64,000 bases of DNA from Tumebacillus sp. BK434 (GTDB taxonomy: Bacteria > Bacillota > Bacilli > Tumebacillales > Tumebacillaceae), in NCBI RefSeq assembly GCF_004340785.1, contig NZ_SLXS01000002.1, positions 1 through 64,000 of the forward strand, in the 5' to 3' direction. The notes under the pieces were generated by a model. That model was not told where the DNA came from. It made no database searches and saw nothing but the letters and a program-made list of their open reading frames with translations. The translations under genes were made by a program, and so were the position numbers. Shown piece by piece: positions 2,415-17,643 of the stretch. The number at the start of each line of letters is the position of its first letter. Position 1 is the first letter of the stretch.

Positions 2415-2433
2415 GAGACAGAGAAGCAGAAAA

Positions 2434-2472
2434 AACGGCTTGGCTCCGCAAGGGGTCAGGCCGTTATGTTTC
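2434..2472 (+). terminator. Possible weak terminator after the C39 peptidase
   Basis: ACGGC...GCCGT arms (2435-2439 and 2460-2464) enclose a smaller CTTG/CAAG hairpin and are followed by TATGTTTCT. The stem is short, so this is tentative. A shorter, broken version of the same sequence is found at 4049-4078. Confidence 0.35.
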
Positions 2473-2614
2473 TAAATAAAATGGGAATTCTTCCATTATC
2501 AAATTCTGTTGCAAGTCGAAGACTTATATATGATATATTTAACTGGAATGCAACAAAGATGGAATTGAAAACTCCTACTACGTACGACCAAATTTATAGA
2601 AAGGTGTTGTTTGT

Positions 2615-3337
2615 ATGACCTCAACAAAAGAAGAATATTCTAAAAATGGCCTTTATACACCTGAAAGAGAAATGCTTCATAACAAAATAATGGAAAAGTT
2701 AATAGTTGGTCCAAGTGAGCAAAATCCCGTAATAACTTTGATGTTAGGTGGTGGTTCTGCATCTGGTAAGAGCTCAGTTAGAAAGAAGATAGTGTCAGAC
2801 ATGCAGATTTTGGGGATTAATCACATAACCATTATTGATGCGGACGATATCAAAGAGGATATTCCTGATTACAAAGTTATTAAAAATCTCGACCCAGAAG
2901 ATGCTGCTAGGTACGTTCATGATGAGAGCAGCGATATTAGCGAAAAACTGATTAATCGTTGTATACAAGAAAAAAGAAGCTTCTTGTATGATGGCACAAT
3001 GAAAAATCTCAGTAAGTATTCGCAGTTGCTTGAGAGGTTGAAAGCAGCGGGCTATACTACCAACGTTTTTGTGATCGATGTTCCAATTGAAATTGCGATA
3101 AAACGTGCCGAAGATAGATTTATAATTTCTGGAAGAAAGGTACCCAGAGATGTGATTATTGAGAGCCATATTGGTGTCTCGCAGACATTTTTTAAGCTAA
3201 GGGAAGAATTCGATCAGTATGTTTTATACGACAACTCCGGGACTAAACCAGAAATAATTGCCAAAAAAATTAAAGGTGACGAAAGTATTTTAGATCTGCA
3301 CAAGGTAAAAGAGTTTAGACAAAAAGGCCTAGTATAA
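2615..3337 (+). CDS. Zeta-toxin-like P-loop kinase
   Basis: A 240-residue protein related to zeta toxin/UDP-GlcNAc kinase-type P-loop kinases. Walker A is GGGSASGKSS (residues 45-54). The acidic IDADDIKED segment (74-82) matches the zeta substrate-side Asp region. A lid-like stretch RAEDRFIISGRKVPRD follows near residues 170-185. Known zeta toxins phosphorylate peptidoglycan precursors and are neutralised by an epsilon antitoxin; no epsilon-like gene lies upstream. Two tiny paralogous genes follow downstream instead. ATG 2615 is preceded by AAAGGTG. The gene is AT-rich, unlike its neighbours, which fits transfer. It could also be a non-toxic zeta-family kinase; toxicity is inferred, not shown. 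Confidence 0.8.
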   Translation: MTSTKEEYSKNGLYTPEREMLHNKIMEKLIVGPSEQNPVITLMLGGGSASGKSSVRKKIVSDMQILGINHITIIDADDIKEDIPDYKVIKNLDPEDAARYVHDESSDISEKLINRCIQEKRSFLYDGTMKNLSKYSQLLERLKAAGYTTNVFVIDVPIEIAIKRAEDRFIISGRKVPRDVIIESHIGVSQTFFKLREEFDQYVLYDNSGTKPEIIAKKIKGDESILDLHKVKEFRQKGLV

Positions 3338-3394
3338 AAACGAAAAAAAAAAATAAAAATGGAACGGAGGTGAAAAAGCTCGGAGGTGTTCTTT

Positions 3395-3532
3395 TTGGAT
3401 AAGAAACAGGAGGAAGATGTTTTCAAACAGCTGATTGAACGATTTGAGGCGACGAAATCAGATTACTTCGAGCATCTTATCTCTGAGAACAAAAAGAAGC
3501 TCGAAGGGGCTGACCAGACCGAGGATGAGTAA
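3395..3532 (+). CDS. Small charged helical protein A, paralog of the next gene
   Basis: A 45-residue product starts at TTG 3395, 8 nt after CGGAGG (3381-3386). It is rich in Glu and Lys and predicted to be helical. The core FKQLIERFEATKSDYFEHLI... aligns without gaps over about 30 residues with the next small protein (FEKLIQNFEETKEDFFQKLI...), so the two arose by duplication. No family was recognised. Its position straight after the zeta-like kinase allows an antitoxin-like or accessory role, but nothing in the sequence proves it. Confidence 0.65.
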   Translation: MDKKQEEDVFKQLIERFEATKSDYFEHLISENKKKLEGADQTEDE

Positions 3533-3558
3533 CACCTTCCCAAAGTTACCTCTTGTGT

Positions 3559-3580
3559 GGTATAATATCGTCAGGAGGCG
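3559..3580 (+). promoter_or_regulatory. Extended -10 promoter and ribosome site of small protein B
   Basis: TGGTATAAT (3558-3566) is an extended -10 box, followed 6 bases later by the CAGGAGGCG ribosome site (3572-3580). The second mini-protein may therefore be transcribed independently of the kinase. Confidence 0.6.
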
Positions 3581-3587
3581 ATGACAA

Positions 3588-3731
3588 ATGGATTTTGAGA
3601 AACTTATTCAGAACTTCGAGGAAACCAAAGAGGACTTTTTTCAAAAGCTAATCGCCGACAACAAACGTAAGCTTGCAATTGCTGAATTTTACGAGTCACA
3701 GCGTCAGTTGGCTGCTACTAATTCAAAATAA
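3588..3731 (+). CDS. Small charged helical protein B, paralog of the previous gene
   Basis: A 47-residue product starting at ATG 3588, with CAGGAGG 8 nt upstream and its own extended -10 promoter. Residues 3-33 match the core of protein A (shared LI..FE.TK.D.F..LI..NK.KL pattern). The C-terminal tail differs (Gln/Ser/Ala-rich). No known family was recognised. The stop codon runs into a 50-bp palindrome that should end transcription. Function is unknown; pairing with a zeta-like kinase makes it a candidate partner or regulator. Confidence 0.65.
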   Translation: MDFEKLIQNFEETKEDFFQKLIADNKRKLAIAEFYESQRQLAATNSK

Positions 3732-3779
3732 TATCATAAAAAGCATTATCCGTATACGGATAATGCTTTTTATGATATT
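3730..3779. terminator. 50-bp perfect palindrome, probably a bidirectional terminator
   Basis: Every base from 3730 to 3754 pairs with 3779 back to 3755, with no loop and no mismatch. The centre is GTATAC and each arm contains a run of A then T (AAAAAGC/GCTTTTT). It can act as an intrinsic terminator on either strand. Its length and perfection are unusual next to the other terminators here and suggest recent origin or selection. Confidence 0.8.
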
Positions 3780-3849
3780 TGTTTTTGTAGTCTAATGTGT
3801 ATATGACCGAATAACTTCGTACAACACGGTTATACTCAGTATCGACGCT

Positions 3850-4070
3850 TGCCTTTTTGTCACCTTCGGATAATGTGAACAACACCGCGCTAACCAACGA
3901 GTCGGTCGCAGCGTTTGACGAAGGAGGAGAAACTGTCCGTAGATTGAAAGATATGACCGAACAACTCGAACGGCACTGCGTAGTTGACTAATCCGGCTGG
4001 ATCGAGAACCCCGGTTTCAATGGGCACGGGCAGGAGATAGAGCACCAGAAAAAACGGCTAAGGGGTCAGG
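3850..4070 (+). pseudogene. Decayed copy of the C39 peptidase 3' end
   Basis: One frame (GTG 3876 to TAA 3990) reads NTALTNESVAAFDEGG-ETV..., which lines up with the intact enzyme's NVLTNDPAAASDAGVTITY. After the stop, the same frame continues SGW...NGHG against PGW...NGHW. At the DNA level, CGAACAACTCGAACGGCACT matches GAACAACTCCAACGGCACC. The 40 bases after the gene (GGAGATAGAGCACCAGAAAAAACGGCT) match 2413-2440 almost exactly. It is a remnant of a tandem or duplicated C39 gene. The N-terminal ~350 codons are absent. Confidence 0.65.
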
Positions 4071-4094
4071 CATTTTTTGGTGGTGAGGCGAAAG

Positions 4095-4463
4095 AAGGCT
4101 GCCTGTGCTGCAGAGTTACAAGCAGTTTTTGACTTCGCGTAACGTGTTGAACTGGGCGTAGTTCTGGGGTTGGGCTCGTCGCGTGCGAACATCGTGGAAT
4201 CGCTGGCCATAGACATTCTCTGGCCGCCGGTGGCGAAGGTGGTCAATACGGCCAGGCCCCCCGGCGCTGAAACCGGACCATTTTAGGTGACGGTGGTCGA
4301 CTGTTTGCTCGACTCAATAGTCTTCTACTTGCTCATCCGCTACATGGACTGCGGCGGGGCAGGACTGCTCAGCACCGAGCTCCAGCAGGAGTGCCCGTCC
4401 TGCACGATGTAAATCTCCATCCGCGCCAAGCGCTATCCGTACTGTAAGAAAGAAATACTGTAA
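4095..4463 (+). pseudogene. mscL: Decayed mscL with zinc-ribbon tail
   Basis: A single frame, interrupted by three stop codons (4140, 4284, 4404), still reads as a large-conductance mechanosensitive channel. Recognisable parts are FDFA-stop, then ELGVVLGLG..NIVESLAIDILWPPVAKV (compare [27 protein letters not shown] in the intact MscL at 34882-35325). Next comes the second helix VVDCLLDSIVFYLLIRYM, then a CPSC...YPYCKKEI tail equal to the CPFC...CSHC zinc ribbon of the intact gene. The middle periplasmic loop is shortened. It cannot encode a working channel. It shows that the zinc-ribbon tail predates the decay. Confidence 0.75.
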
Positions 4464-4489
4464 CAATTCCAACAAAGAATTTATTGGAC

Positions 4490-4530
4490 ACACAAACAGA
4501 TGCCTGCATAATACAGGCGTCTTTTTGTGT
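4490..4530. terminator. Bidirectional terminator
   Basis: ACACAAA...TTTGTGT outer arms surround AGATGCCTG/CAGGCGTCT, followed by TTTTTGTGT on the plus strand. It separates the mscL pseudogene from the converging nuclease-like gene. Confidence 0.75.
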
Positions 4531-4535
4531 AGTTA

Positions 4536-6494
4536 CTACACATTTGCCTTTTTGTAGTCTGCGACTTCAACAAATATTTGTGGGGAGGCTGATTCCAATG
4601 TGATTACTCGATCCTCAACATAGACGTTCTCAAGGGCATCTTGAATTGGAAAAGGGAATCGTAAAAAACCAGTGATATTTGAGAGGAATTCAGCTGAGTT
4701 CTCATAATATTTTATTAGCTCCACTTGTGTTCTGGTTGTTTGACTTTCTGATATCGCAACCTTTATCTTCTTGTATTCACCAGAACCAATATAGGATTCT
4801 AATAGAAATAAATCAATAATAGGGATATTATTAATTGTTATTCCGCTAAAAATGGAAAAATTTGTTATAACTATCGGGAATACTTCCTTATTTTTGATTT
4901 CTCCTAATTCATCTATAAAACACTTCTGGTTTTCAACAATAAATTTAGCCTTTCTTGTTGCTTGGTCTGCTCCTGCTCGCAATCTTTTCAGTGAATTATG
5001 ATAATCTCGTGGCTCCATAGGATATTTTATGTTTTTAAGCTCACAGACGATTATTAAACCTTCTAAGGATATTATCATGTCAATTTCTTCATACTTACCA
5101 ATCTCGTTGTAAAACTTATCTCTAGAAGGTATTGTAAAATGAATTTTTCTCTTGTTTAAATGTTGTCTGGTGATGTTTTTTACAAACCTTTCAAATAGAA
5201 TACCTCTTGCCTCAATACCGTATCCTCCAACTTCTAACCATTCGTCTATTAGATATAAGAAGTTTGGGGCTGCGATACTCGGCATACACACATAGTATAT
5301 GTCCCTATACTTAATGAGCGGTGTTCTCCATAAGTTAATTCTTGAGTCACTACTTCCTGTTGCTCCAACAAGTGATAGAAATGCCTTGATATCTTTGTCA
5401 GAGTAGAATGTAGTTTTGGTAAAGAATTTGATCAAATCATTCTCTCTGATCTTGAATGCTAACTGCTTCAGGTGGAGTGATTTGGTGTCTAACTCTAACT
5501 CGTTAATACCAGTAACCAATTCAACCAGTAGTGAAAGTAGTACTAATAAATCACTTATAGTGAGGTTGTTTAACTTCTGTAGTTTGATGTCCTTAAAGTG
5601 AGGGTAGTATGCAGCGATAGAAGATTGTCCTTCTTTCATGTAATCATTTATCTTAAGATCACTTTTCGAGGTAGAGAGACGATATGAAATTGTCCCTTTT
5701 GTGTTAACGGAAGTGTTAATTAGGGCAACAGGCTTTTTCTTTGCCATAAAGCTATCTCTAAGCAATGTCGTACGAGAACGAATAGATATTGAACCAGTGC
5801 CTTTAAGCAACTCTTCTAATATTACTAAGTAACTAATAATATTTTGTTGTTGTCTAAACACCCCTACTTGCCTTTTGAGCGGATACTGTTTGTCCTTGTA
5901 CCTAATACTAAGAAGGTTCTCCTTAATTTCAACATAGCCATCTTCCCAAAGTGCTTCATCATAGGCATTCTTAACATTGTAGTAAATATTTGCGATTGCA
6001 TAAGTTCTCGAAACATCTAGTCTTATTTCAGATTCCTGGAAATTCAAACTCATATCTCCGTTGTTAAAGAACCGCAGATAATTAACAATAATATTGAAGG
6101 TTTCTACAGCTGTTTCAAACGATCCAAGAATATTCATTTCACCAAAATGACTAATAGGTGAAGAAATGCGCATACACGATAGTTCCTGCAGATTGTACTC
6201 ATTGGGAGCTAGCTCAACTATGGACTTTTTTAGATTCAAATAATCACTATTTACCGCACCTAAAAAGCATTTGAACATATACTCATTCGATTTGTTATAC
6301 TTTTTAACAAACTCGCCCAGTTTTGCGTACATATCCCTGTAATACATATTAAATATAGGAGTTGAAAGTGCTATTGAAGATTCTTGGTCTTCGGAGTCCA
6401 ACAATCTAGTAAGTTCCGAGAAGTCAAAAGAATCGTTGAATGGATTGAATTTTGGATTTCCTTGCAGAAGCTTCCGTATATTTTTTTTATTCAT
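4536..6494 (-). CDS. Large PD-(D/E)XK nuclease-like protein of unknown role
   Basis: A 652-residue protein, intact and AT-rich. The C-terminal third holds a PD-(D/E)XK core: Glu471-Asp472 in YEEIDMII, then Glu485-x-Lys487 in CELKN, with a following helix containing Gln511 (AGADQATRKAKF). This spacing is typical of restriction-endonuclease-fold enzymes that cut DNA or RNA. The first ~400 residues match nothing I recognise. It has no signal peptide or membrane segment. The start ATG follows GGAGG by 6 nt. It stands alone between an mscL pseudogene and a nitrilase pseudogene. A defence or mobile-element role is an inference from the fold, composition and surroundings; a partner gene is not visible. 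Confidence 0.75.
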   Translation of the reverse strand: MNKKNIRKLLQGNPKFNPFNDSFDFSELTRLLDSEDQESSIALSTPIFNMYYRDMYAKLGEFVKKYNKSNEYMFKCFLGAVNSDYLNLKKSIVELAPNEYNLQELSCMRISSPISHFGEMNILGSFETAVETFNIIVNYLRFFNNGDMSLNFQESEIRLDVSRTYAIANIYYNVKNAYDEALWEDGYVEIKENLLSIRYKDKQYPLKRQVGVFRQQQNIISYLVILEELLKGTGSISIRSRTTLLRDSFMAKKKPVALINTSVNTKGTISYRLSTSKSDLKINDYMKEGQSSIAAYYPHFKDIKLQKLNNLTISDLLVLLSLLVELVTGINELELDTKSLHLKQLAFKIRENDLIKFFTKTTFYSDKDIKAFLSLVGATGSSDSRINLWRTPLIKYRDIYYVCMPSIAAPNFLYLIDEWLEVGGYGIEARGILFERFVKNITRQHLNKRKIHFTIPSRDKFYNEIGKYEEIDMIISLEGLIIVCELKNIKYPMEPRDYHNSLKRLRAGADQATRKAKFIVENQKCFIDELGEIKNKEVFPIVITNFSIFSGITINNIPIIDLFLLESYIGSGEYKKIKVAISESQTTRTQVELIKYYENSAEFLSNITGFLRFPFPIQDALENVYVEDRVITLESASPQIFVEVADYKKANV

Positions 6495-6721
6495 GTATAT
6501 CCTCCGTATGTTAATTGTCTTGTATATATCCGTAAAAGTTAATATAACTGCAATTCAAACTGAGTTGGATGGTCAGAGAAAAATCTGTACAACCAATTAT
6601 ATCATCAAAATTATGTTCGAGAGTTTCAGTGGATAAAGTAATACCTTTTCGAAAATATCGTGGTACACTATTGCCAAATGGTACAGGGTTAAGGAATAAA
6701 TTACTAAATAGAGTAATTGTA
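6495..6721. other. AT-rich upstream region of the nuclease-like gene and island edge
   Basis: This AT-rich stretch holds the ribosome site and presumably the promoter of the minus-strand nuclease-like gene (GGAGG just before its ATG; TATAAT-like hexamers on the minus strand). The AT-rich composition stops exactly where the nitrilase remnant begins (ATG 6722). That ATG has no ribosome site, as if the insertion had removed it. Confidence 0.5.
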
Positions 6722-7493
6722 ATGAAGATTGGGTTGGTGCAAGCGAAATTTACGGCGTCGCGCAAGGAGTCGGTGGAGCAGGCGATGCGGCTGAATTTCG
6801 GAAAGCGGGCGAAGCGCGCTGTGACGTGGAGTGTTTTTCGGAAGGGGTTGTGCCGGGGATGCGCGAGGTGGGGGTTGAGAACGAACCGCACGATCAGGCG
6901 GAACAAGAAGCGGCGCTCGAACTGGTGCGGGCCGCGGCAGTAGCAGCAGGGACGGCGGTGATCCTCGGCATGGAGTGGGGGCCTAATCTGGTGGCGATGG
7001 TGATCGACGAGGCGGGGAACGTGCTCGGTTATCAGGCGAAAAACCAGATCGCCGTCAAGGAGGAAAATACTAGATTCCCGACGGGAATCGCAAGATTTTT
7101 ACGAACAAAGGCGTTCCGGTTGGCATCGCGATCTGACATGGAGCTTGGCGCTATCCGGAGACGGTACGCTGGGCGGCGAAACGCAGGGAGAAGATCGTGT
7201 TCCATTCGCAGGTGACAGGGTCGGTCGCTGCATTGGGTCCTGCCGAGCCGTTTTACGAGATGGCGATGGTCTGCCGCGCTATGGAAAACACGACCTACTT
7301 CGCCAGCATCAACCATGCGCTGGGACATCAGGAGTGGCGGACAACGCTGGTCGCACCGGACGGCAATCTTGTGGCCTCTGTGCCACTGGGGGAAGAAAAG
7401 TTGCTTGTCTCCGACTTGAATCTGGAACAGGCGACCTGGTTTTTGGCGAAACGGTACAACCCGGATTTGTATCAGGGAGAAGGGGATGTGTGA
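6722..7493 (+). pseudogene. Carbon-nitrogen hydrolase (nitrilase family), frameshifted
   Basis: Three pieces in different frames join into one nitrilase-family enzyme. They are MKIGLVQAKFTASRKES (from 6722), CDVECFSEGVVPGM...LGYQAKNQIAVKEENTRFPTG (about 6795-7085), and KIFTNKGVPVGIAI-stop-HGAWRYPE...FHSQVTGSVAALG...NPDLYQ (about 7090-7493). The family's catalytic Glu (CFSE) and Lys region survive. The TGA at 7134-7136 stands exactly where the nucleophilic Cys is expected (AICHxxWRYPE). At least two frameshifts and the stop make it non-functional. The ribosome site is missing. It overlaps the next GNAT gene by 8 nt, as in an old operon. Confidence 0.8.
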
Positions 7494-8683: not shown

Positions 8684-9517
8684 ATGATCAAAAGCATCAG
8701 CGACGCTGCCGTACTGGCAAACGGCGTGAAAATGCCATGGCTCGGCCTCGGCGTTTTTAAGACGCAGGAAGGCGCCGAGGTGGAAAATTCGGTTCGCTAC
8801 GCGCTCGAAGCCGGCTACCGGCACATCGACACCGCCGCGATCTACCGCAACGAGGAAGGCGTCGGCCGCGCGGTGAAAGCGTCGGGTATCGCGCGCGAAG
8901 AGCTGTTTATCACCACAAAGGTCTGGAACACGGAGCAAGGGTACGAGACGACCCTGGCCGCTTTTGAAGAGAGCCGCCGGAAACTGGGGCTGGAGTATGT
9001 CGACCTGTACTTGATCCACTGGGCGGTGAAGGAGAAGTACAAAGAGACGTGGCGCGCGCTGGAGAAGCTGTACCGAGACGGGCTGGTGCGGGCGATCGGG
9101 GTGTCGAACTTCCAGGTGCACCATCTGCAAGACCTGATGGCGACGGCAACTGTGAAGCCGATGGTCAATCAGGTGGAATACCACCCCTACCTGACGCAAC
9201 AGGAGCTGCTCGCGTTCTGCCAGCAGGAAGGGATTCAGTTCGAAGCATGGAGCCCGCTGATGCGCGGGCGCATCCAGGAAGAGCCGGTCATCGTGCAGCT
9301 GGCGGAGAAATACGGCAAGACACCGGCGCAGATCGTCTTGCGCTGGGACTTGCAGCACGGCGTGGTGACGATTCCGAAATCGATCCGGCAGGAGCGCGTG
9401 ATCGAAAATGCGCAGCTGTTCGACTTTGCGCTGTCGGCGGAGGATCTGGCGACGCTGGACGGGCTGAATCGGGATCAGCGCTTCGGGTCGGACCCGGACA
9501 ATTTTAATTTTAAGTGA
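8684..9517 (+). CDS. Aldo/keto reductase
   Basis: A 277-residue NADPH-dependent oxidoreductase of the AKR superfamily. The catalytic tetrad is visible: Asp and Tyr in HIDTAAIYRNEEGVG, Lys in ITTKVWN, His in LIHWAV. The C-terminal IPKSIRQERVIENAQLF loop binds the cofactor phosphate. It is close to the B. subtilis YvgN/YtbE type that reduces aldehydes such as methylglyoxal (family knowledge). GAAAGGGTG precedes ATG 8684. A diverged paralog lies at 40874. Confidence 0.95.
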   Translation: MIKSISDAAVLANGVKMPWLGLGVFKTQEGAEVENSVRYALEAGYRHIDTAAIYRNEEGVGRAVKASGIAREELFITTKVWNTEQGYETTLAAFEESRRKLGLEYVDLYLIHWAVKEKYKETWRALEKLYRDGLVRAIGVSNFQVHHLQDLMATATVKPMVNQVEYHPYLTQQELLAFCQQEGIQFEAWSPLMRGRIQEEPVIVQLAEKYGKTPAQIVLRWDLQHGVVTIPKSIRQERVIENAQLFDFALSAEDLATLDGLNRDQRFGSDPDNFNFK

Positions 9518-9601
9518 TAGGCCAAGGGAAAGCTAAGTGACGGGTCACAGGGGAGAAGAACTCTTGGCTAGATGTGCAGCAGAATGAGGAGGAAGATATG
9601 A

Positions 9602-10693
9602 ATGGGGAAAATGGCTTTGGTCGTGATCGACGCGCAGACCGCCTTGGTGGAACAGGTGTACCAGCCGGAGCGGCTGCTGCAAAACATCGCCGGGCTGCTG
9701 GAGCGGGCGCGGGCGGCAGGCGTGCCGGTCGTGTTTGTGCAGGATGATGATGTGAGCGAACCGGGCTCGGACGGCTGGCAGGTGCACCCGGCGATCGCAC
9801 CGCTGGAGACGGAGCGCCGCGTTCGCAAGAAGGCGACCGACTCGTTTTACGGCACCGACCTGAACGCCTTTTTGACGGCGAACGGGGTGAAGACGCTCGT
9901 GGTCTGCGGCTGCAAAACCGACTATTGCGTCGACACGGCCACGCGCCGCGCCACCACGCTTGGCTATCAGGTGATCGTGGCAAAGGATGCGCATTCGACG
10001 ACAGACAACGGCGTGTTGACGGCGGAGCAGATCATCGCGCATCACAACAAGAACCTGCACGGGCTGGACAATCTGGAAAATTATTCGCAGACGATGCCGA
10101 GCAGCGAAATCGAGTTTGCAGCGGGCGGGAACGCGCCGTTCGGGGCAAAAAAAGCGGGCGAGCGCGTCTACATCCGCACGTTTGAAGTCAGCGATGCGGA
10201 GGCGATGACCGCGCTTTTGGTGAAGAACCGCGCGTTCTGGGGCCAGTTTGAAACGAGCCGCAGCGATGATGAATACACGGTAGAGTACCAGCGCCGCAAT
10301 CTGGAGCAGATGCGTGCAGAATGGGTGAAAGACCGCGGCTACTTTTTCGGGATCTTCCTGCAGGAGAATGACCGGCTGATCGGGGACATCGGGATTCACA
10401 TGATCGCGCGCGGGCCGTGCCAGAGCGCGTTTGTCGGGTATTCGCTCGATGAGGAGCACAACGGGAAGGGCTATGCGACAGAAGCGCTGCGGCTGGTGGT
10501 GGACTTCGGCTTCCACGACATCAACCTGCACCGCCTGCAAGCGGACGCCGCTCCGGAGAATCCGGCATCTTACCGGGTGCTGGAGAAGGCCGGGTTCCAG
10601 CGGGAAGGGACGGAGCGCAAGAATTTGCTGATCAACGGGAAGTGGCAGGATCATCTGCAGTACGCGATCATAAATGAGCACTGGGAAGGCTGA
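9602..10693 (+). CDS. Fusion of isochorismatase-like hydrolase and GNAT acetyltransferase
   Basis: A 363-residue two-domain protein in one uninterrupted frame. Residues 1-180 form a cysteine hydrolase of the isochorismatase family: Asp in VVIDAQTALV, Lys in RRVRKKATDSFYGTDL, and Cys in VVCGCKTDYCVDTATRRA. Residues about 190-363 are a RimJ/RimL-type GNAT domain (YIRTFEVSDAEAMTALL; GYSLDEEHNGKGYATEALRLV; NPASYRVLEKAGFQREG). ATG 9602 follows GAGGAGGAAG. The two activities are normally on separate proteins; their fusion suggests linked steps such as amide hydrolysis and acetylation of one metabolite, which is inference. The phosphoesterase gene starts 6 bases downstream. Confidence 0.9.
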   Translation: MGKMALVVIDAQTALVEQVYQPERLLQNIAGLLERARAAGVPVVFVQDDDVSEPGSDGWQVHPAIAPLETERRVRKKATDSFYGTDLNAFLTANGVKTLVVCGCKTDYCVDTATRRATTLGYQVIVAKDAHSTTDNGVLTAEQIIAHHNKNLHGLDNLENYSQTMPSSEIEFAAGGNAPFGAKKAGERVYIRTFEVSDAEAMTALLVKNRAFWGQFETSRSDDEYTVEYQRRNLEQMRAEWVKDRGYFFGIFLQENDRLIGDIGIHMIARGPCQSAFVGYSLDEEHNGKGYATEALRLVVDFGFHDINLHRLQADAAPENPASYRVLEKAGFQREGTERKNLLINGKWQDHLQYAIINEHWEG

Positions 10694-10699
10694 TCGGCG

Positions 10700-11200
10700 A
10701 TGAAGATCGCGGTGATTTCCGACACGCACATGCCGAAGATGGCCACAGGAGTGCCGCCTGCGCTGGCCGACGGGCTCCGTGATGTGGACCTGATCTTGCA
10801 TGCCGGTGACTGGCAGACGCTGGCGGCGGTGGAGCTGTTCGAGCAGTTTGCGCCGCTAGACGGTGTGGCCGGAAATGTGGACGGGGAGGAGATCGCTGCC
10901 CGGTTCGGACGGCAGAAAGTGCTGACGATCGGCGGGTACAAGATCGGCCTTGTCCATGGCGACGGCAAAGGCAAGACCACGGAACGGAGAGCGGCGGCCG
11001 CGTTTGCCGGAGAGAAGCTGGATCTGATCATCTTTGGGCACTCGCACGTTCCGTATCATGAGGTGCTGGCGGATGGGACGGTTTTGTTTAACCCGGGGTC
11101 GCCGACAGATAAGCGGCGGCAGGCTCAGTTTTCTTATGGGTTGATTGAGATTGGCGAAGGTATGCGTGTGCGGCATGAGTTTTATGCGGAGAAGAAGTGA
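10700..11200 (+). CDS. YfcE/MJ0936-family metallophosphoesterase
   Basis: A 166-residue phosphodiesterase of the calcineurin-like fold. Metal ligands are visible in order: Asp8 and His10 (ISDTHMP), Asp in HAGDWQ, Asn in GNVD, His in LVHGDG, and GHSH. The length fits the family (about 160-180). It follows the isochorismatase-GNAT fusion after only 6 nt and is probably co-transcribed. It likely cleaves small phosphodiesters; the substrate is unknown. Confidence 0.92.
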   Translation: MKIAVISDTHMPKMATGVPPALADGLRDVDLILHAGDWQTLAAVELFEQFAPLDGVAGNVDGEEIAARFGRQKVLTIGGYKIGLVHGDGKGKTTERRAAAAFAGEKLDLIIFGHSHVPYHEVLADGTVLFNPGSPTDKRRQAQFSYGLIEIGEGMRVRHEFYAEKK

Positions 11201-11212
11201 TGTGAAGTGAAG

Positions 11213-11236
11213 GGCACCCGTGCAGGGTGCCTTTTT
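11213..11236. terminator. Terminator between convergent genes
   Basis: GGCACCC/GGGTGCC arms (11213-11219 and 11225-11231) with a 5-nt loop and TTTTT. It ends the 9602-11200 pair; the minus-strand gene ends right beside it at 11240. Confidence 0.9.
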
Positions 11237-11239
11237 CTG

Positions 11240-11866
11240 TTAGTACAGCCGGTTGGTGTAGCTGTCTTGGAGGCGGGCCGTGACTTCTTGTTCATCGACG
11301 TTTGGCAGGTTGACGTGGGCGGCGATCATGCGGGCCGGGACGGGCAGGTCGGCGGAGGGGAGCCACGTTTCGGGCTGCCAGAGCCGGGATCGTTTCAGGG
11401 ATTTGGCGCAATGGACGAAGCACTCTTCGATTTCGACGCCGATGGCGAGCAGGGGCGTTTTGCCGTTGGCAGCAACGCTCTTCAGCAAGTCCTCGTCGCG
11501 CACGATGCAGGCGCGGCCGTTGATGCGCAGCGTCTCTTCAAGGCCGGGGATCAGGAAGAGCAGGCCGATCTGGCCAGTAGCCAGGATGTTGCGCAGGGAG
11601 TCGGCGCGCTTGTTGCCAGGGCGCTCGGGGATCAGCAGGCGGTGCTCATCCAGCACCGCGACGAAGCCGGGCTGGTCGCCGCGCGGTGACACGTCGCAGT
11701 GTCCCTCGACATCAGAGGTGGCGATGAGGGCAAAGGGGGACTTGGCGAGAAAGTCCCGGCAGTGCGCGTCGAGCTGGGAGATCGATTTGTTCTGCACGAG
11801 CGGGCTCGGCTGTCCGAGCAGTTCGCGCAGCTCCGCTTCGTCGGTCAGGATGTTGGGAAAGTTCAT
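11240..11866 (-). CDS. Pyridoxamine 5'-phosphate oxidase-family flavoprotein
   Basis: A 208-residue protein of the split-barrel FMN-binding fold. It resembles the MSMEG_1061 branch: SPFALIATSDVEGHCDVSPRGDQPGFV, RLLIPERPGNKRADSLRNIL, IGLLFLIPG.EETLRINGRA, and a C-terminal ECFVHCAKSLKRSRLW. It probably reduces an unknown substrate with FMN or F420-like cofactor. ATG 11866 is preferred over GTG 11875 because AAAGGAGTG lies just before it. Confidence 0.88.
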   Translation of the reverse strand: MNFPNILTDEAELRELLGQPSPLVQNKSISQLDAHCRDFLAKSPFALIATSDVEGHCDVSPRGDQPGFVAVLDEHRLLIPERPGNKRADSLRNILATGQIGLLFLIPGLEETLRINGRACIVRDEDLLKSVAANGKTPLLAIGVEIEECFVHCAKSLKRSRLWQPETWLPSADLPVPARMIAAHVNLPNVDEQEVTARLQDSYTNRLY

Positions 11867-11976
11867 GGCGATCACTCCTTTGTGTCTCCAAGATACAGCA
11901 AAGCCCGGAGAAAGACGAGGGATGATTTTCCTGCCGGCGCCTCATAGTAAGGAAAACGGCAGAAGGGGATTGGAAC

Positions 11977-13371
11977 ATGCTGAAACAGAAGAAGGCGCGC
12001 GTTTTCGCTGGGGAGCAGGAGCGGCAGCCGAAGCATTTGAAGGGGATCGGCGTATTCAGTCTGGCCGGCGTCGGGATCGGCGGCGTGGTCGGGGCCGGGT
12101 TCCTGCTCGGGTCGGGACTGGCGGTGCAGCAGGCGGGGCCGGCGGTGGTGCTGGCTTTTTTGCTGGGCGGGCTGGTGATGATGCAGGTGCTGGGGGCGAT
12201 GACGTCGGTCGCCGTCAATCGGGTGGTGCCAGGGTCGTTTCGGGTGCATACGGAGCAGATGCTCGGGCGCTACAGCGGTTTCTTGATGGGTTGGATGGCG
12301 TTTGCGTCCGGCATTTTGGGTTTGGGCTCGGAGGCGCTGGCGATGGGGATCTTTTCGCGCTATTGGCTGCCGGGGATGCCGCTTGCGATCTTGGCGACCG
12401 GGTTTATGCTGGTCGTGATCGGGCTCAATGCGTTTGGGGTGGAAAATTTCAGCAAGGTGGAAACGTGGATGACGGTGGCCAAGGTCGGGGCGTTGCTGGC
12501 GTTTGTCGTGCTCGGAGGTTTTGCGGTGCTGACGGCGGGCCACGCACTGGTCTCGCCGTCGCCGGTCGCGGGATATGGAGCGATGTTTCCCAAAGGCTGG
12601 AGCGGGATGCTGGAGTCGATGCTGATCGTCGTCTTCTGCTACTCGGGCATCGGGGCGGTGGCGATGGCCGGGACGGAGGCGCGGGACCCGCAGCGGGACA
12701 TTCCGAAGGCGACGTGGTACATGGCGCTCGCGGTGATCTTGCTGTATGTGGCGGCGATGGCGGTGTTGATCTTCGTCACGCCGTGGAGCGGTGTCGATGC
12801 GAAGGAGTCGCCGTTTGTGCAGGCGTTCGATTCACTGCGGCTCGGCTGGGCGTCGACGGGGATGAACGTGATCATCATGATCGCGGCGTTTTCGGTGATG
12901 GCGGCGACGTATTTTGCCTGCATGCAGATGCTGGTCTCGCTGGCGGAAGCGCAGGAGGCGCCGCAGTTCTGCGCGTCAAAATCCGGCCCGCACGGCCGCT
13001 ACCGCATCGCCTGGCTGATCGTCGGCGGGGCGGGGCTCTTGATCATGGGGCTGTCGTTTGTGCTGCCGCCGAAGCTGTTTCAGTATCTGGTCGCGGCGTC
13101 GTCGTATTTTTCGTTTGCGATGTGGGCGTTGAATCTGCTGACCTATCTGGTCTGGCTGAAGAAGCGGAAAACGGAAGAGACGTATCACTCGGCGCTCGTC
13201 TTCGGGCGGCTGGGAGCCTATCTGACGCTGGCGGCGATTGCGGTGCTCGCCGGGATGAGTCTTCGCGTCGCCGATTTTCGAATGGGCTTTTATGTGGCGG
13301 CCGGGCTGACGGTGCTGATCTCGGCAGCCTATGCGCTGTGGGCACGGGTACAGTCGCAGGAGGAGTGCTGA
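11977..13371 (+). CDS. APC-superfamily amino acid permease
   Basis: A 464-residue membrane protein with about 12 transmembrane helices. The first helix has the APC substrate-site signature (GVGIGGVVGAGFLLGSG). The fifth to sixth segments include FCYSGIGAVAMAGTEARDPQRDIPKA, the conserved E-A-x-x-P-x-x-x-I-P motif of amino acid/polyamine permeases. It imports or exchanges an amino acid that cannot be named from sequence. It is divergent from the flavoprotein gene and stands alone. Confidence 0.9.
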   Translation: MLKQKKARVFAGEQERQPKHLKGIGVFSLAGVGIGGVVGAGFLLGSGLAVQQAGPAVVLAFLLGGLVMMQVLGAMTSVAVNRVVPGSFRVHTEQMLGRYSGFLMGWMAFASGILGLGSEALAMGIFSRYWLPGMPLAILATGFMLVVIGLNAFGVENFSKVETWMTVAKVGALLAFVVLGGFAVLTAGHALVSPSPVAGYGAMFPKGWSGMLESMLIVVFCYSGIGAVAMAGTEARDPQRDIPKATWYMALAVILLYVAAMAVLIFVTPWSGVDAKESPFVQAFDSLRLGWASTGMNVIIMIAAFSVMAATYFACMQMLVSLAEAQEAPQFCASKSGPHGRYRIAWLIVGGAGLLIMGLSFVLPPKLFQYLVAASSYFSFAMWALNLLTYLVWLKKRKTEETYHSALVFGRLGAYLTLAAIAVLAGMSLRVADFRMGFYVAAGLTVLISAAYALWARVQSQEEC

Positions 13372-13820: not shown

Positions 13821-15242
13821 ATGGCGGAATTGATTCCGATTTTGGATGAGCAGGCGGCAGAGTCGTTGTACGGGCAACTGTATCGGTTTTTTCGGGAGGA
13901 AATTTTGAGCGGGCGGATCGTGGCAGGGACGAAGTTGCCCTCTGTAAGGCATTTGTGCAGGTCGGCGGGCGTTAGCAAAAGCACGGTGGAAACGGCGTAT
14001 CAGCAACTGCTGGCCGAAGGGTATCTCGAGAGCCGGGCGCGGAGCGGTTTTTATGTGGTCGAGGCGGTGGATTTTGCGGGATGGGACGTATTGCCGGCCG
14101 AGGGGGAAGCGGAGGTGGTGACACCGCCCGTTGCGGCGGTGGCGCCCCGGTACAATTTTCACGGGTCGGTGATCGATCTGGCGTCGTTTCCCTTAGGGGT
14201 GTGGAAGAAGTGCATGCTGGAGGCGATGGAGCGGTATCAGGGGGACTTGGCATTTTATGGGGACAAGCTGGGGGAGTATGAGCTGCGGGCGGAGATCGCG
14301 CGGTATCTGCGGCAGGCGCGGACGGTACAGGCGGTGCCGGAGCAAGTCGTGGTCGGGACGGGGCTCTTGCAGGCGGTCGGGTCGCTGTGTCTGCTGCTCG
14401 CAGCCGATGTGAAAAAAGTGGCGATCGAGGAGCCGGGCTATGCGGATGTGCGTGAGGTGTTTGAGCAGCACGGGATGGAAGTGGTGCCGGTCCCGCTGGA
14501 GGAGGACGGGCTGTCGGTGCAGCTGTTGCGGGAGAGCGGGGCGCAGATGGTGTATGTGACGCCGGCGCACCAGTATCCGTACGGGATGATCATGCCGATC
14601 GCCAAGCGGATGCAGCTCCTGGAATGGGCGCGGAGCACGGGCGGGCTGATTTTGGAGAATGATTACGACGGGGAGTTTCGGTACAAAGTGAAGCCGGTAC
14701 CGTCGCTGCAGGGGCTGGATCAGCACGGGTCGGTGATCTATGTGAGCAATTTTTCGAAAGCGTTGTCGCCGGCGATTCGGGTGAATTACATGGTGCTGCC
14801 CCTGAAGGTGATGGAACGGTATCGGGCGTTTTATCAGCAGTATGCGAACCCGGTGTCGCGGATCGAGCAGCGCGCCTTGCAGCTCTTTCTGCAAAACGGG
14901 CACTGGGAGCGGCACATCCGCAAGATGCGCAAGGTCTACGAGCGCAAACAGGCGGCGCTGCTGCAGGCGGTGGAGGAGGAGTTCGGCGACCTCGTCAGCG
15001 TCTTGGCGCAGGCGGCGGGTCTGCATTTGATTCTGGAAGTGAAGGCGGAAAGAAGCGGCGAAGAGCTGGCAGCCATCGCCGTTGCCGCCGGGGTCAAAGT
15101 CTACCCGACCACCCGCAACTGGATCGGTGCAGCAAAGCCCGCCTGGCCCCGCCTGCTGTTGGGGTTCGGCGGGCTGTCACCCGAAGAGATCCGGGAGGGA
15201 ATCCAACTGTTGCGGCACGCTTGGTTTCCTGACGAGCGTTGA
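13821..15242 (+). CDS. MocR-type regulator: GntR DNA-binding domain fused to aminotransferase fold
   Basis: A 473-residue PLP-binding transcription regulator. The N-terminal ~75 residues are a winged-helix GntR domain (LYGQLYRFFREEILSGRIVAGTKLPSVRHLCRSAGVSKSTVETAYQ). The rest is a class I aminotransferase-like domain; the PLP Lys lies in SNFSKALSPAIRV and an Asp in ENDYDGEFRY. MocR/PdxR proteins sense PLP or amino compounds and often control a divergent neighbour. Here that is the hypothetical gene at 13417. ATG 13821 follows CAGGAG. A frame extension to 13791 is possible. Confidence 0.9.
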   Translation: MAELIPILDEQAAESLYGQLYRFFREEILSGRIVAGTKLPSVRHLCRSAGVSKSTVETAYQQLLAEGYLESRARSGFYVVEAVDFAGWDVLPAEGEAEVVTPPVAAVAPRYNFHGSVIDLASFPLGVWKKCMLEAMERYQGDLAFYGDKLGEYELRAEIARYLRQARTVQAVPEQVVVGTGLLQAVGSLCLLLAADVKKVAIEEPGYADVREVFEQHGMEVVPVPLEEDGLSVQLLRESGAQMVYVTPAHQYPYGMIMPIAKRMQLLEWARSTGGLILENDYDGEFRYKVKPVPSLQGLDQHGSVIYVSNFSKALSPAIRVNYMVLPLKVMERYRAFYQQYANPVSRIEQRALQLFLQNGHWERHIRKMRKVYERKQAALLQAVEEEFGDLVSVLAQAAGLHLILEVKAERSGEELAAIAVAAGVKVYPTTRNWIGAAKPAWPRLLLGFGGLSPEEIREGIQLLRHAWFPDER

Positions 15243-16260: not shown

Positions 16261-17643
16261 ATGAGCATCACAATGGAACAAGTCGTAGCGCTGGCCAAAC
16301 ACCGCGGCTTTATCTTCCCGGGCTCCGAGATCTACGGCGGCCTGGCGAACACGTGGGACTACGGTCCGCTTGGCGTGGAGCTGAAAAACAACGTCAAGAA
16401 AGCATGGTGGAAGAAGTTCGTGCAGGAATCCCCGTTCAACGTTGGCCTCGACGCGGCGATCCTGATGAACCCGAAAACGTGGGTCGCGTCCGGCCACATC
16501 GGCAACTTCAACGACCCGATGATCGACTGCAAACAATGCAAATCGCGCCACCGCGCCGACAAGCTGATCGAAGACGCACTGCAGGAAAAAGGCATCGAGA
16601 TGATCGTCGACGGCCTGTCCTTCGACGAGATGGCAGGTCTGATCAAGGAACACAACATCGCCTGCCCGGACTGCGGCGCGCATGACTTCACCGACATTCG
16701 CCAGTTCAACCTGATGTTCAAAACGTTCCAAGGCGTCACCGAGTCGTCCGCCAATGAAATCTACCTCCGCCCGGAGACGGCGCAAGGCATTTTCGTCAAC
16801 TTCAAGAACGTCCAGCGCACGATGCGCAAAAAGCTGCCGTTCGGCATCTGCCAAGTCGGCAAATCGTTCCGCAACGAGATCACGCCGGGCAACTTCACCT
16901 TCCGCACCCGCGAGTTCGAACAGCTGGAGATGGAGTTCTTCTTCAAGCCGGGCGAAGATGACAAGTGGTTCTCCTACTGGCGCGAATACGCGCACAACTG
17001 GCTGCTCGGCCTCGGCGTGAAGGATGAAAACCTCCGCCTGCGCGACCATGAGCAGGATGAGCTGTCGCACTACTCGACGGCGACCACCGACTTCGAGTAC
17101 AAGTTCCCGTTCGGCTGGGGCGAGCTGTGGGGCATCGCGAACCGCACCAGCTTCGACCTCAAGCAGCACATGGAGCACTCCGGCGAAGACTTCCACTACC
17201 TCGATCCGGAGACGAACGAGAAGTTCATCCCGTACGTCATCGAGCCGTCTTTGGGCGCAGACCGCGTGACCTTGGCGTTCCTGATCGATGCGTTCGACGA
17301 AGAGCAGCTCGAAGGCGGCGACTCCCGCACCGTGCTGCGCTTCCACCCGGCGCTGGCGCCGTTCAAAGCGGCGATCCTCCCGCTCTCCAAGAAGCTGGCC
17401 GAGCCGGCGCAAGCGGTGTTCGGCGACCTGGCGAAGCACTTCATGGTCGACTACGACGATGCCGGCTCGATCGGCAAGCGCTACCGCCGCCACGACGAGA
17501 TCGGTACCCCGTTTTGCATCACCTACGACTTCGAATCGCAAGAGGACGGCCAAGTGACCGTTCGTCACCGCGATTCGATGGAACAGGTGCGCATGCCGAT
17601 CGCCGACCTGAAAGCGTTCATCGAGTCCAAGCTCGAGTTCTAA
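16261..17643 (+). CDS. glyS: Glycyl-tRNA synthetase, single-chain type
   Basis: A 460-residue class II synthetase of the homodimeric (alpha2) bacterial/eukaryal type. It opens with [31 protein letters not shown]. The two Cys pairs of the inserted zinc-binding region are visible (CKQCKSRH and CPDCGAHDF). Motif 2 is seen in [25 protein letters not shown], and motif 3 in [20 protein letters not shown]-terminal anticodon-binding domain follows ([13 protein letters not shown]). It charges tRNA-Gly and is controlled by the T-box directly upstream. It is monocistronic. Confidence 0.97.

Follow-up and report, generated by a model that had tools for sequence, protein, structure and literature searches.

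Mrr, a restriction endonuclease, cuts DNA according to the chemical state of that DNA, and the Mokosh type I and Nhi-like systems carry helicases. The NERD domain occurs in both of the latter (PMC10952713), and the nuclease-helicase of Hachiman, once triggered, is described as destroying all DNA of the cell (PMC12278908). A further system, Upx, is listed among anti-phage systems (PMC12629846); judging from its title, the PDB entry 9wuf, 'Cryo-EM structure of Upx', represents this same anti-phage protein. No published mechanism of Upx was found in the literature searched. Defense genes are well described as cargo of prophages and satellites (PMC9122126), and intact prophages are credited with 12 of 21 systems in one account (PMC9519451). 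According to one screen, PD-(D/E)XK domains are present in 13 of 31 further validated systems, but of 24 units chosen through remote homology to defense proteins, six of them with PD-(D/E)XK domains, one conferred protection (PMC13092281). On the figures given there, genomic context weighs more than the domain, and a nuclease domain by itself is weak evidence for a role in defense.

An AT-Rich Insert with an Intact Predicted Nuclease Gene

The window, by which we mean the whole stretch of 64,000 nucleotides of Tumebacillus sp. BK434 DNA analyzed here, carries a gene that had been predicted from the sequence to be intact and to encode a stand-alone PD-(D/E)XK protein (Table 1). The ORF of 652 codons is indeed uninterrupted and is preceded by a Shine-Dalgarno sequence. 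The original prediction had given no strand; the gene lies on the minus strand, running from 6494 to 4536, and the plus-strand frame over these positions is riddled with stop codons. The predicted foreign, AT-rich composition was borne out as well, with a GC content of 34.5% in the gene and 38.0% in the insert around it versus 58.6% in the window outside the insert, where the lowest value among 224 overlapping 1-kb windows from position 7001 on is 49.2%. In a genome of the same genus (G001), a spacer of 386 bp separates the C39 peptidase gene from an open nitrilase gene, and its alignment with the window breaks off at 2417 and picks up again at 6722, the start of the nitrilase gene. The absence of the insert rests on this one comparison, the other genome of the genus (G002) having no C39 match. 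By these computations the insert is foreign, and the nuclease gene in it was probably acquired horizontally.

The insert is composite and consists, in this order, of a zeta-toxin gene with small ORFs, decayed DNA, and the nuclease gene. The genes on both sides of the latter had been described as ruined, which applies to the stretch 3741–4497, with its ORFs of at most 62 aa and a decayed partial copy of the C39 gene tail, and to the frame-broken nitrilase gene, but not to the zeta-toxin gene or to the C39 peptidase gene before the insert, both of which are intact. Short degenerate copies of the 3′ end of the C39 gene and of the hairpin after it are located at approximately 3953–4071 (a match of 42 bp at 83%, E 2.7e-6, and one of 24 bp at 88%, E 0.006), and they suggest that this site had undergone a duplication before.

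The zeta gene and the nuclease gene are probably separate acquisitions. A role of the nuclease as partner of the zeta protein was rejected, as the two genes lie on opposite strands with decayed DNA between them and a tblastn search with the zeta protein gave no match in the 17 homolog locus records. Apart from its own genome, the zeta gene has relatives, all of them weak, in five of the 60 related genomes. It is preceded by a 45-aa ORF, the end of which overlaps the zeta ATG (together 2481–3337, plus strand) and which could encode an antitoxin. Two small plus-strand ORFs of 45 and 47 aa (3395–3532 and 3588–3731), visibly alike in sequence (FE-TK-D-F--LI--NK-KL), follow the zeta gene and are bordered on their far side by a long, perfect palindrome at 3731–3778.

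Table 1. Positions in the window of the nuclease gene, its parts, and the features around it.
Feature	Position	Strand	Basis
AT-rich insert, 4.3 kb	2418..6721	none	GC content and alignment with same-genus G001
Zeta-toxin-family gene, intact	2615..3337	plus	PF06414, E 1.2e-34
Terminator-like hairpin immediately past the nuclease-gene stop codon	4498..4522	none	Consensus scan
Gene for compact Upx-like/NERD-like PD-(D/E)XK protein (predicted folds), 652 aa, intact	4536..6494	minus	ORF list
C-terminal tail, residues 546–652, partly low-confidence	4539..4859	minus	AF2 model
Predicted PD-(D/E)XK core, residues 427–545 (E435, D472, E485, K487, Q511, R514, K515)	4860..5216	minus	Model, solved folds, conservation
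Mostly helical region, residues 29–424, predicted fold of Upx 752–1107	5223..6410	minus	N-terminal model alone
Shine-Dalgarno GGAGG, 6 nt 5′ of the nuclease-gene ATG	6501..6505	minus	
Decayed nitrilase gene, frame-broken, flanking the insert	6722..7493	plus	Copy open (256 aa) in G001

The Predicted Nuclease Core

Residues ~427–545 are predicted to form a PD-(D/E)XK fold. The best of five whole-protein AF2 models, built from nine sequences, reached a pLDDT of 75 and a pTM of 0.79 (mean pLDDT across the five from 75 to 57.5), and contains the alpha-beta-beta-beta-alpha-beta core of this fold (helix 427–448, strands 468–470, 473–477, and 480–487, helix 495–521, strand 537–544). The active-site pattern D472-x12-E485-x-K487 with Q511 lies where it had been proposed, is completed by E435, and is conserved in 11 or 12 of the 12 aligned sequences: E435, E469, E470, D472, E485, Q511, R514, and K515 are invariant, and position 487 is a lysine in all but the E. 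coli/Klebsiella protein, which has an arginine. Residues 427–545 account for 11 of the 18 invariant columns in the 12-sequence alignment, versus 3.3 expected from the length of this segment. The model also resembles solved PD-(D/E)XK enzymes. When the full model was compared by VIA-align 2, 16 of 928 chains gave a Z of at least 8, among them Can2 (Z 9.7, rmsd 2.6, 113 residues aligned) and a chain of McrBC (Z 8.8, 126 aligned); EndoMS and MGME1 are further solved relatives of the fold.

The likeness to the CRISPR ancillary nucleases of the Can2/Card1 type covers the nuclease and the residues immediately ahead of it, but Pfam matched no CARF domain in the family; the Klebsiella/E. coli relative scores weakly against a CARF-PDDEXK model of PADLOC (E 0.0034). 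The nearest Pfam family is NERD (PF08378), which weakly matches residues 431–542 of the window protein at 13.7 bits, under the Pfam cut-off of 22.1. With an E limit of 1, NERD weakly matches the core in all nine members of the alignment A3, the best E being 5.7e-6. No helicase domain was matched in the family. PADLOC v2.0.0 gave nothing for the window protein and, for seven relatives, matches in two of them, all at E 0.003–0.008; the best PHROGs match for the family had an E of 0.036, and a PDB search with the window protein sequence alone gave no match. With no PADLOC match and a Pfam score under the cut-off, the window protein would be missed by surveys that use PADLOC 2.0.0 or Pfam models.

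The N-Terminal Region and Its Probable Structural Kinship with Upx

The ~400 residues in front of the nuclease had been thought to resemble nothing recognizable. In the structural comparisons this view did not hold, since the predicted fold corresponds to a part of Upx. Folded separately, residues 1–424 gave a model with a pLDDT of 72.7 and a pTM of 0.75 (mean pLDDT across five models from 72.7 to 56.3), which aligns with Upx over 260 residues (29–424 vs. 752–1107) at Z 11.0 and rmsd 5.7. Among 611 re-aligned PDB chains Upx was the single one with a Z of at least 5, the next-best value being 4.8. Upx is likewise the best match of the full model (PDB 9wuf; Z 10.6, rmsd 7.1, 377 residues, 47–562 vs. 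769–1266), although under the rule of the alignment tool it counts as tied with Can2, and the tool cautions that a Z below ~13 can come from an arrangement common in helical proteins. The two models that agree on Upx overlap in sequence and in alignment, and their registers are much alike. Foldseek alone yielded no match within an E limit of 0.001, nor did it place Upx among its best 50 matches, so the Upx match stems from lower-ranked Foldseek candidates that were re-aligned. Sequence searches of the PDB did not retrieve Upx with four single sequences at E up to 10, with a 12-row profile at E up to 10 (ten matches at chance level, E 1.5–1.9), or with a 9-row profile at E up to 1. Since these searches revealed no similarity to Upx in sequence, the kinship rests on models of moderate confidence with an rmsd of 5.7–7.1. 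With these cautions kept, we take the structural kinship of the N-terminal region with Upx as real, because two models indicate it with closely similar registers and because no other structure competes for this region.

Residues 752–1266 of Upx are matched by the leading region and the nuclease in the same order, and the two together would thus make a compact protein that folds like the C-terminal half of Upx. Upx itself has ~1,260 residues, whereas the window protein lacks a counterpart of its first ~750; across the nine rows of A3 the family measures 642–702 aa, well short of full-length Upx. The window protein, which as modeled is akin in structure to the C-terminal half of Upx, probably works like Upx. 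It is not filed as Upx here, since it lacks the N-terminal ~750 residues and the sequence searches gave no sign of kinship.

Neighborhoods of the Relatives

If the gene serves defense, homologs might be expected in defense islands. Several are indeed located in such islands or in mobile elements, whereas the surroundings of some others are uninformative. In all three E. coli strains the homolog lies between the HsdR and CbtA genes of the fimB-nan island, which also holds HsdM (annotated as frameshifted in two strains), HsdS, AbiEii, and SIR2 genes and, in two of the three, a gene named NACHT. The flanks shared with other strains stop at 14741 and resume at 17256 of the E. coli locus L008. Three other E. 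coli strains, inspected out of 267 further genomes with a match on the CbtA side, have an Mrr_cat endonuclease gene in the same slot, with flanks 94.6–97.3% identical and with HsdR ahead of the slot in two. Klebsiella has 3.4 kb of the compared L008 stretch in common at 99.9%, with a SIR2 gene further along. The Klebsiella record (NZ_CP129856.1; L006/L011) is a linear 'plasmid' of 550 kb that may be a mislabelled chromosomal piece, given that bamA and xylA lie near the island.

The exchange with an Mrr_cat gene at this one E. coli site would suit a restriction endonuclease that depends on DNA modification (type IV-like) or works with a partner methylase, and that reads the chemical state of DNA and not infection, as would the DNA methylases near the homologs of L014 (0.3 kb away), L015 (3 kb), and L018 (two genes), and the Mom gene in the prophage of L017. 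This is a possible but somewhat doubtful reading: at most loci no methylase was recognized, and the leading region resembles Upx and no known modification reader. Membership in the Mrr family itself was rejected, as none of nine members matched Mrr_cat at E up to 1; the proteins occupying the slot also differ in length (335 aa for Mrr vs. 677 aa) and in their leading regions.

In the Gastranaerophilales locus L018, PADLOC identified HamA (E 1.9e-72) and HamB (E 1.5e-216) directly ahead of the homolog, on the same strand and with a gap of 49 bp. This arrangement would be expected if the family supplied an effector module to multi-gene systems, for instance as an add-on to Hachiman, instead of standing alone. 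We consider this unlikely, because a near relative of this homolog (L019, 82% identical) has neither HamA nor HamB beside it, and tblastn with the L018 HamA and HamB at E up to 1e-3 found no relative in the 16 other locus records, a search that a distant Ham pair could escape. An obligatory Hachiman component was rejected, the company of HamA and HamB having been found at this one locus among the records searched.

Two loci, L012 and L017, are letter-identical to stretches of IMG/VR prophage contigs (L020 and L021). The homolog of L012 has portal and terminase genes on either side, and that of L017 is found near DnaB-like helicase, Mom, and ParB-like genes. Several neighbors in L012 (7900–16459) resemble by eye membrane-anchored coiled-coil proteins, two of which gave nothing firm in Pfam; they are possibly further accessory genes. 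L013, with sliding-clamp, SSB, and primase-like genes nearby, is probably an integrated element. L007 and L010 are plasmids, and in the former an AbiEii gene lies 452 bp further along. By the tests run, L014, L015, L016, L019, and L041 show no clear defense or phage neighbor; in L016 the gene preceding the homolog weakly matches DruC (E 2e-5). No constant partner gene was recognized across the homolog loci, and a stand-alone unit is therefore most likely.

The two prophage and two plasmid locations might also point to a nuclease for prophage or plasmid maintenance, or to one belonging to a selfish element and acting in replication, packaging, or homing. There is little probability in this. In both IMG/VR prophages the gene is transcribed against the adjacent phage genes, none of 50,697 phage records contains a match, and in the E. 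coli chromosomal island the gene takes the place of a restriction gene. The original prediction had left the choice between a defense and a selfish-element nuclease open; the former reading is supported and the latter less so. Of the two observations named beforehand as refuting the prediction, homologs that are housekeeping genes at a conserved locus and a predicted structure devoid of a nuclease fold, neither was made.

Distribution

The family is patchily distributed. Among 101 relatives searched, the window protein stands alone; in the class, 3 of 398 genomes contain a member, counting the window itself and one broken copy, and when 398 genomes from the phylum were searched with a profile, the window itself and no other was returned. 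One Paenibacillus genus has it in 2 of 75 genomes. A pattern scan of genome contigs yielded eight loci, six from Paenibacillus and two from Gastranaerophilales; distant members are under-sampled, since this single contig scan used two short patterns derived from three sequences. In 72,556 plasmid records there were two matches with the window protein as query and four with P0001, itself included. Near-identical DNA of the Klebsiella gene, to which this count is restricted, occurs in 3 of 5,426 E. coli genomes. No match was confirmed in IMG/VR scans that took as query the window protein by itself, P0001, P0002, or the pair from Gastranaerophilales, and a scan with the Paenibacillus set gave two contigs, those of L020 and L021.

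The member in L041 (G195; 8913–13223) is broken into three pieces by two inserts, which on inspection by eye resemble transposase genes of IS elements. The Paenibacillus genome of L042 (G826) encodes a second protein of 702 aa (L043:9775–11883), which has the nuclease half alone in common (hhalign 96.4% over 214 columns); its gene adjoins one with a sub-threshold DUF4365 match.

EndoMS and MGME1 among the solved fold relatives could suggest a housekeeping nuclease of DNA repair. With a gene of foreign composition that was not found in nearly all relatives searched, this is highly improbable; a housekeeping gene is contradicted by the patchy occurrence in the 101 relatives, the class, and the Paenibacillus genus, and no conserved housekeeping locus was seen among the homologs.

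Proposed Function

The window gene probably encodes a stand-alone, horizontally acquired nuclease directed against phages or other mobile DNA, as a system of one single gene. A small, so far uncatalogued phage-defense nuclease is probable in view of the predicted Upx-like shape together with the occurrence of relatives in viruses, on plasmids, and in defense islands. In such a system the C-terminal NERD-like PD-(D/E)XK domain would cut DNA. The mostly helical leading region of ~400 residues, which the models equate with the unit in front of the Upx nuclease, might recognize or gate, sensing infection or foreign DNA. The output could be either phage restriction or abortive infection, and by analogy a triggered nuclease comparable to that of Hachiman is one possible model.

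Significance

There is, in our judgment, about an even chance that the family represents a free-standing minimal Upx, in which a recognition region and a NERD-like nuclease suffice for immunity. Full Upx would then have gained ~750 residues in front, or the family would have lost them, and the family would constitute an uncatalogued single-gene defense system that extends from Bacillota to Gastranaerophilales and Proteobacteria. A so far unplaced protein would thereby become a testable minimal version of a large defense protein. A single gene for 650 residues would be easier than Upx to purify, mutate, and solve, and a comparison of the window protein with Upx would show the role of the extra ~750 residues.
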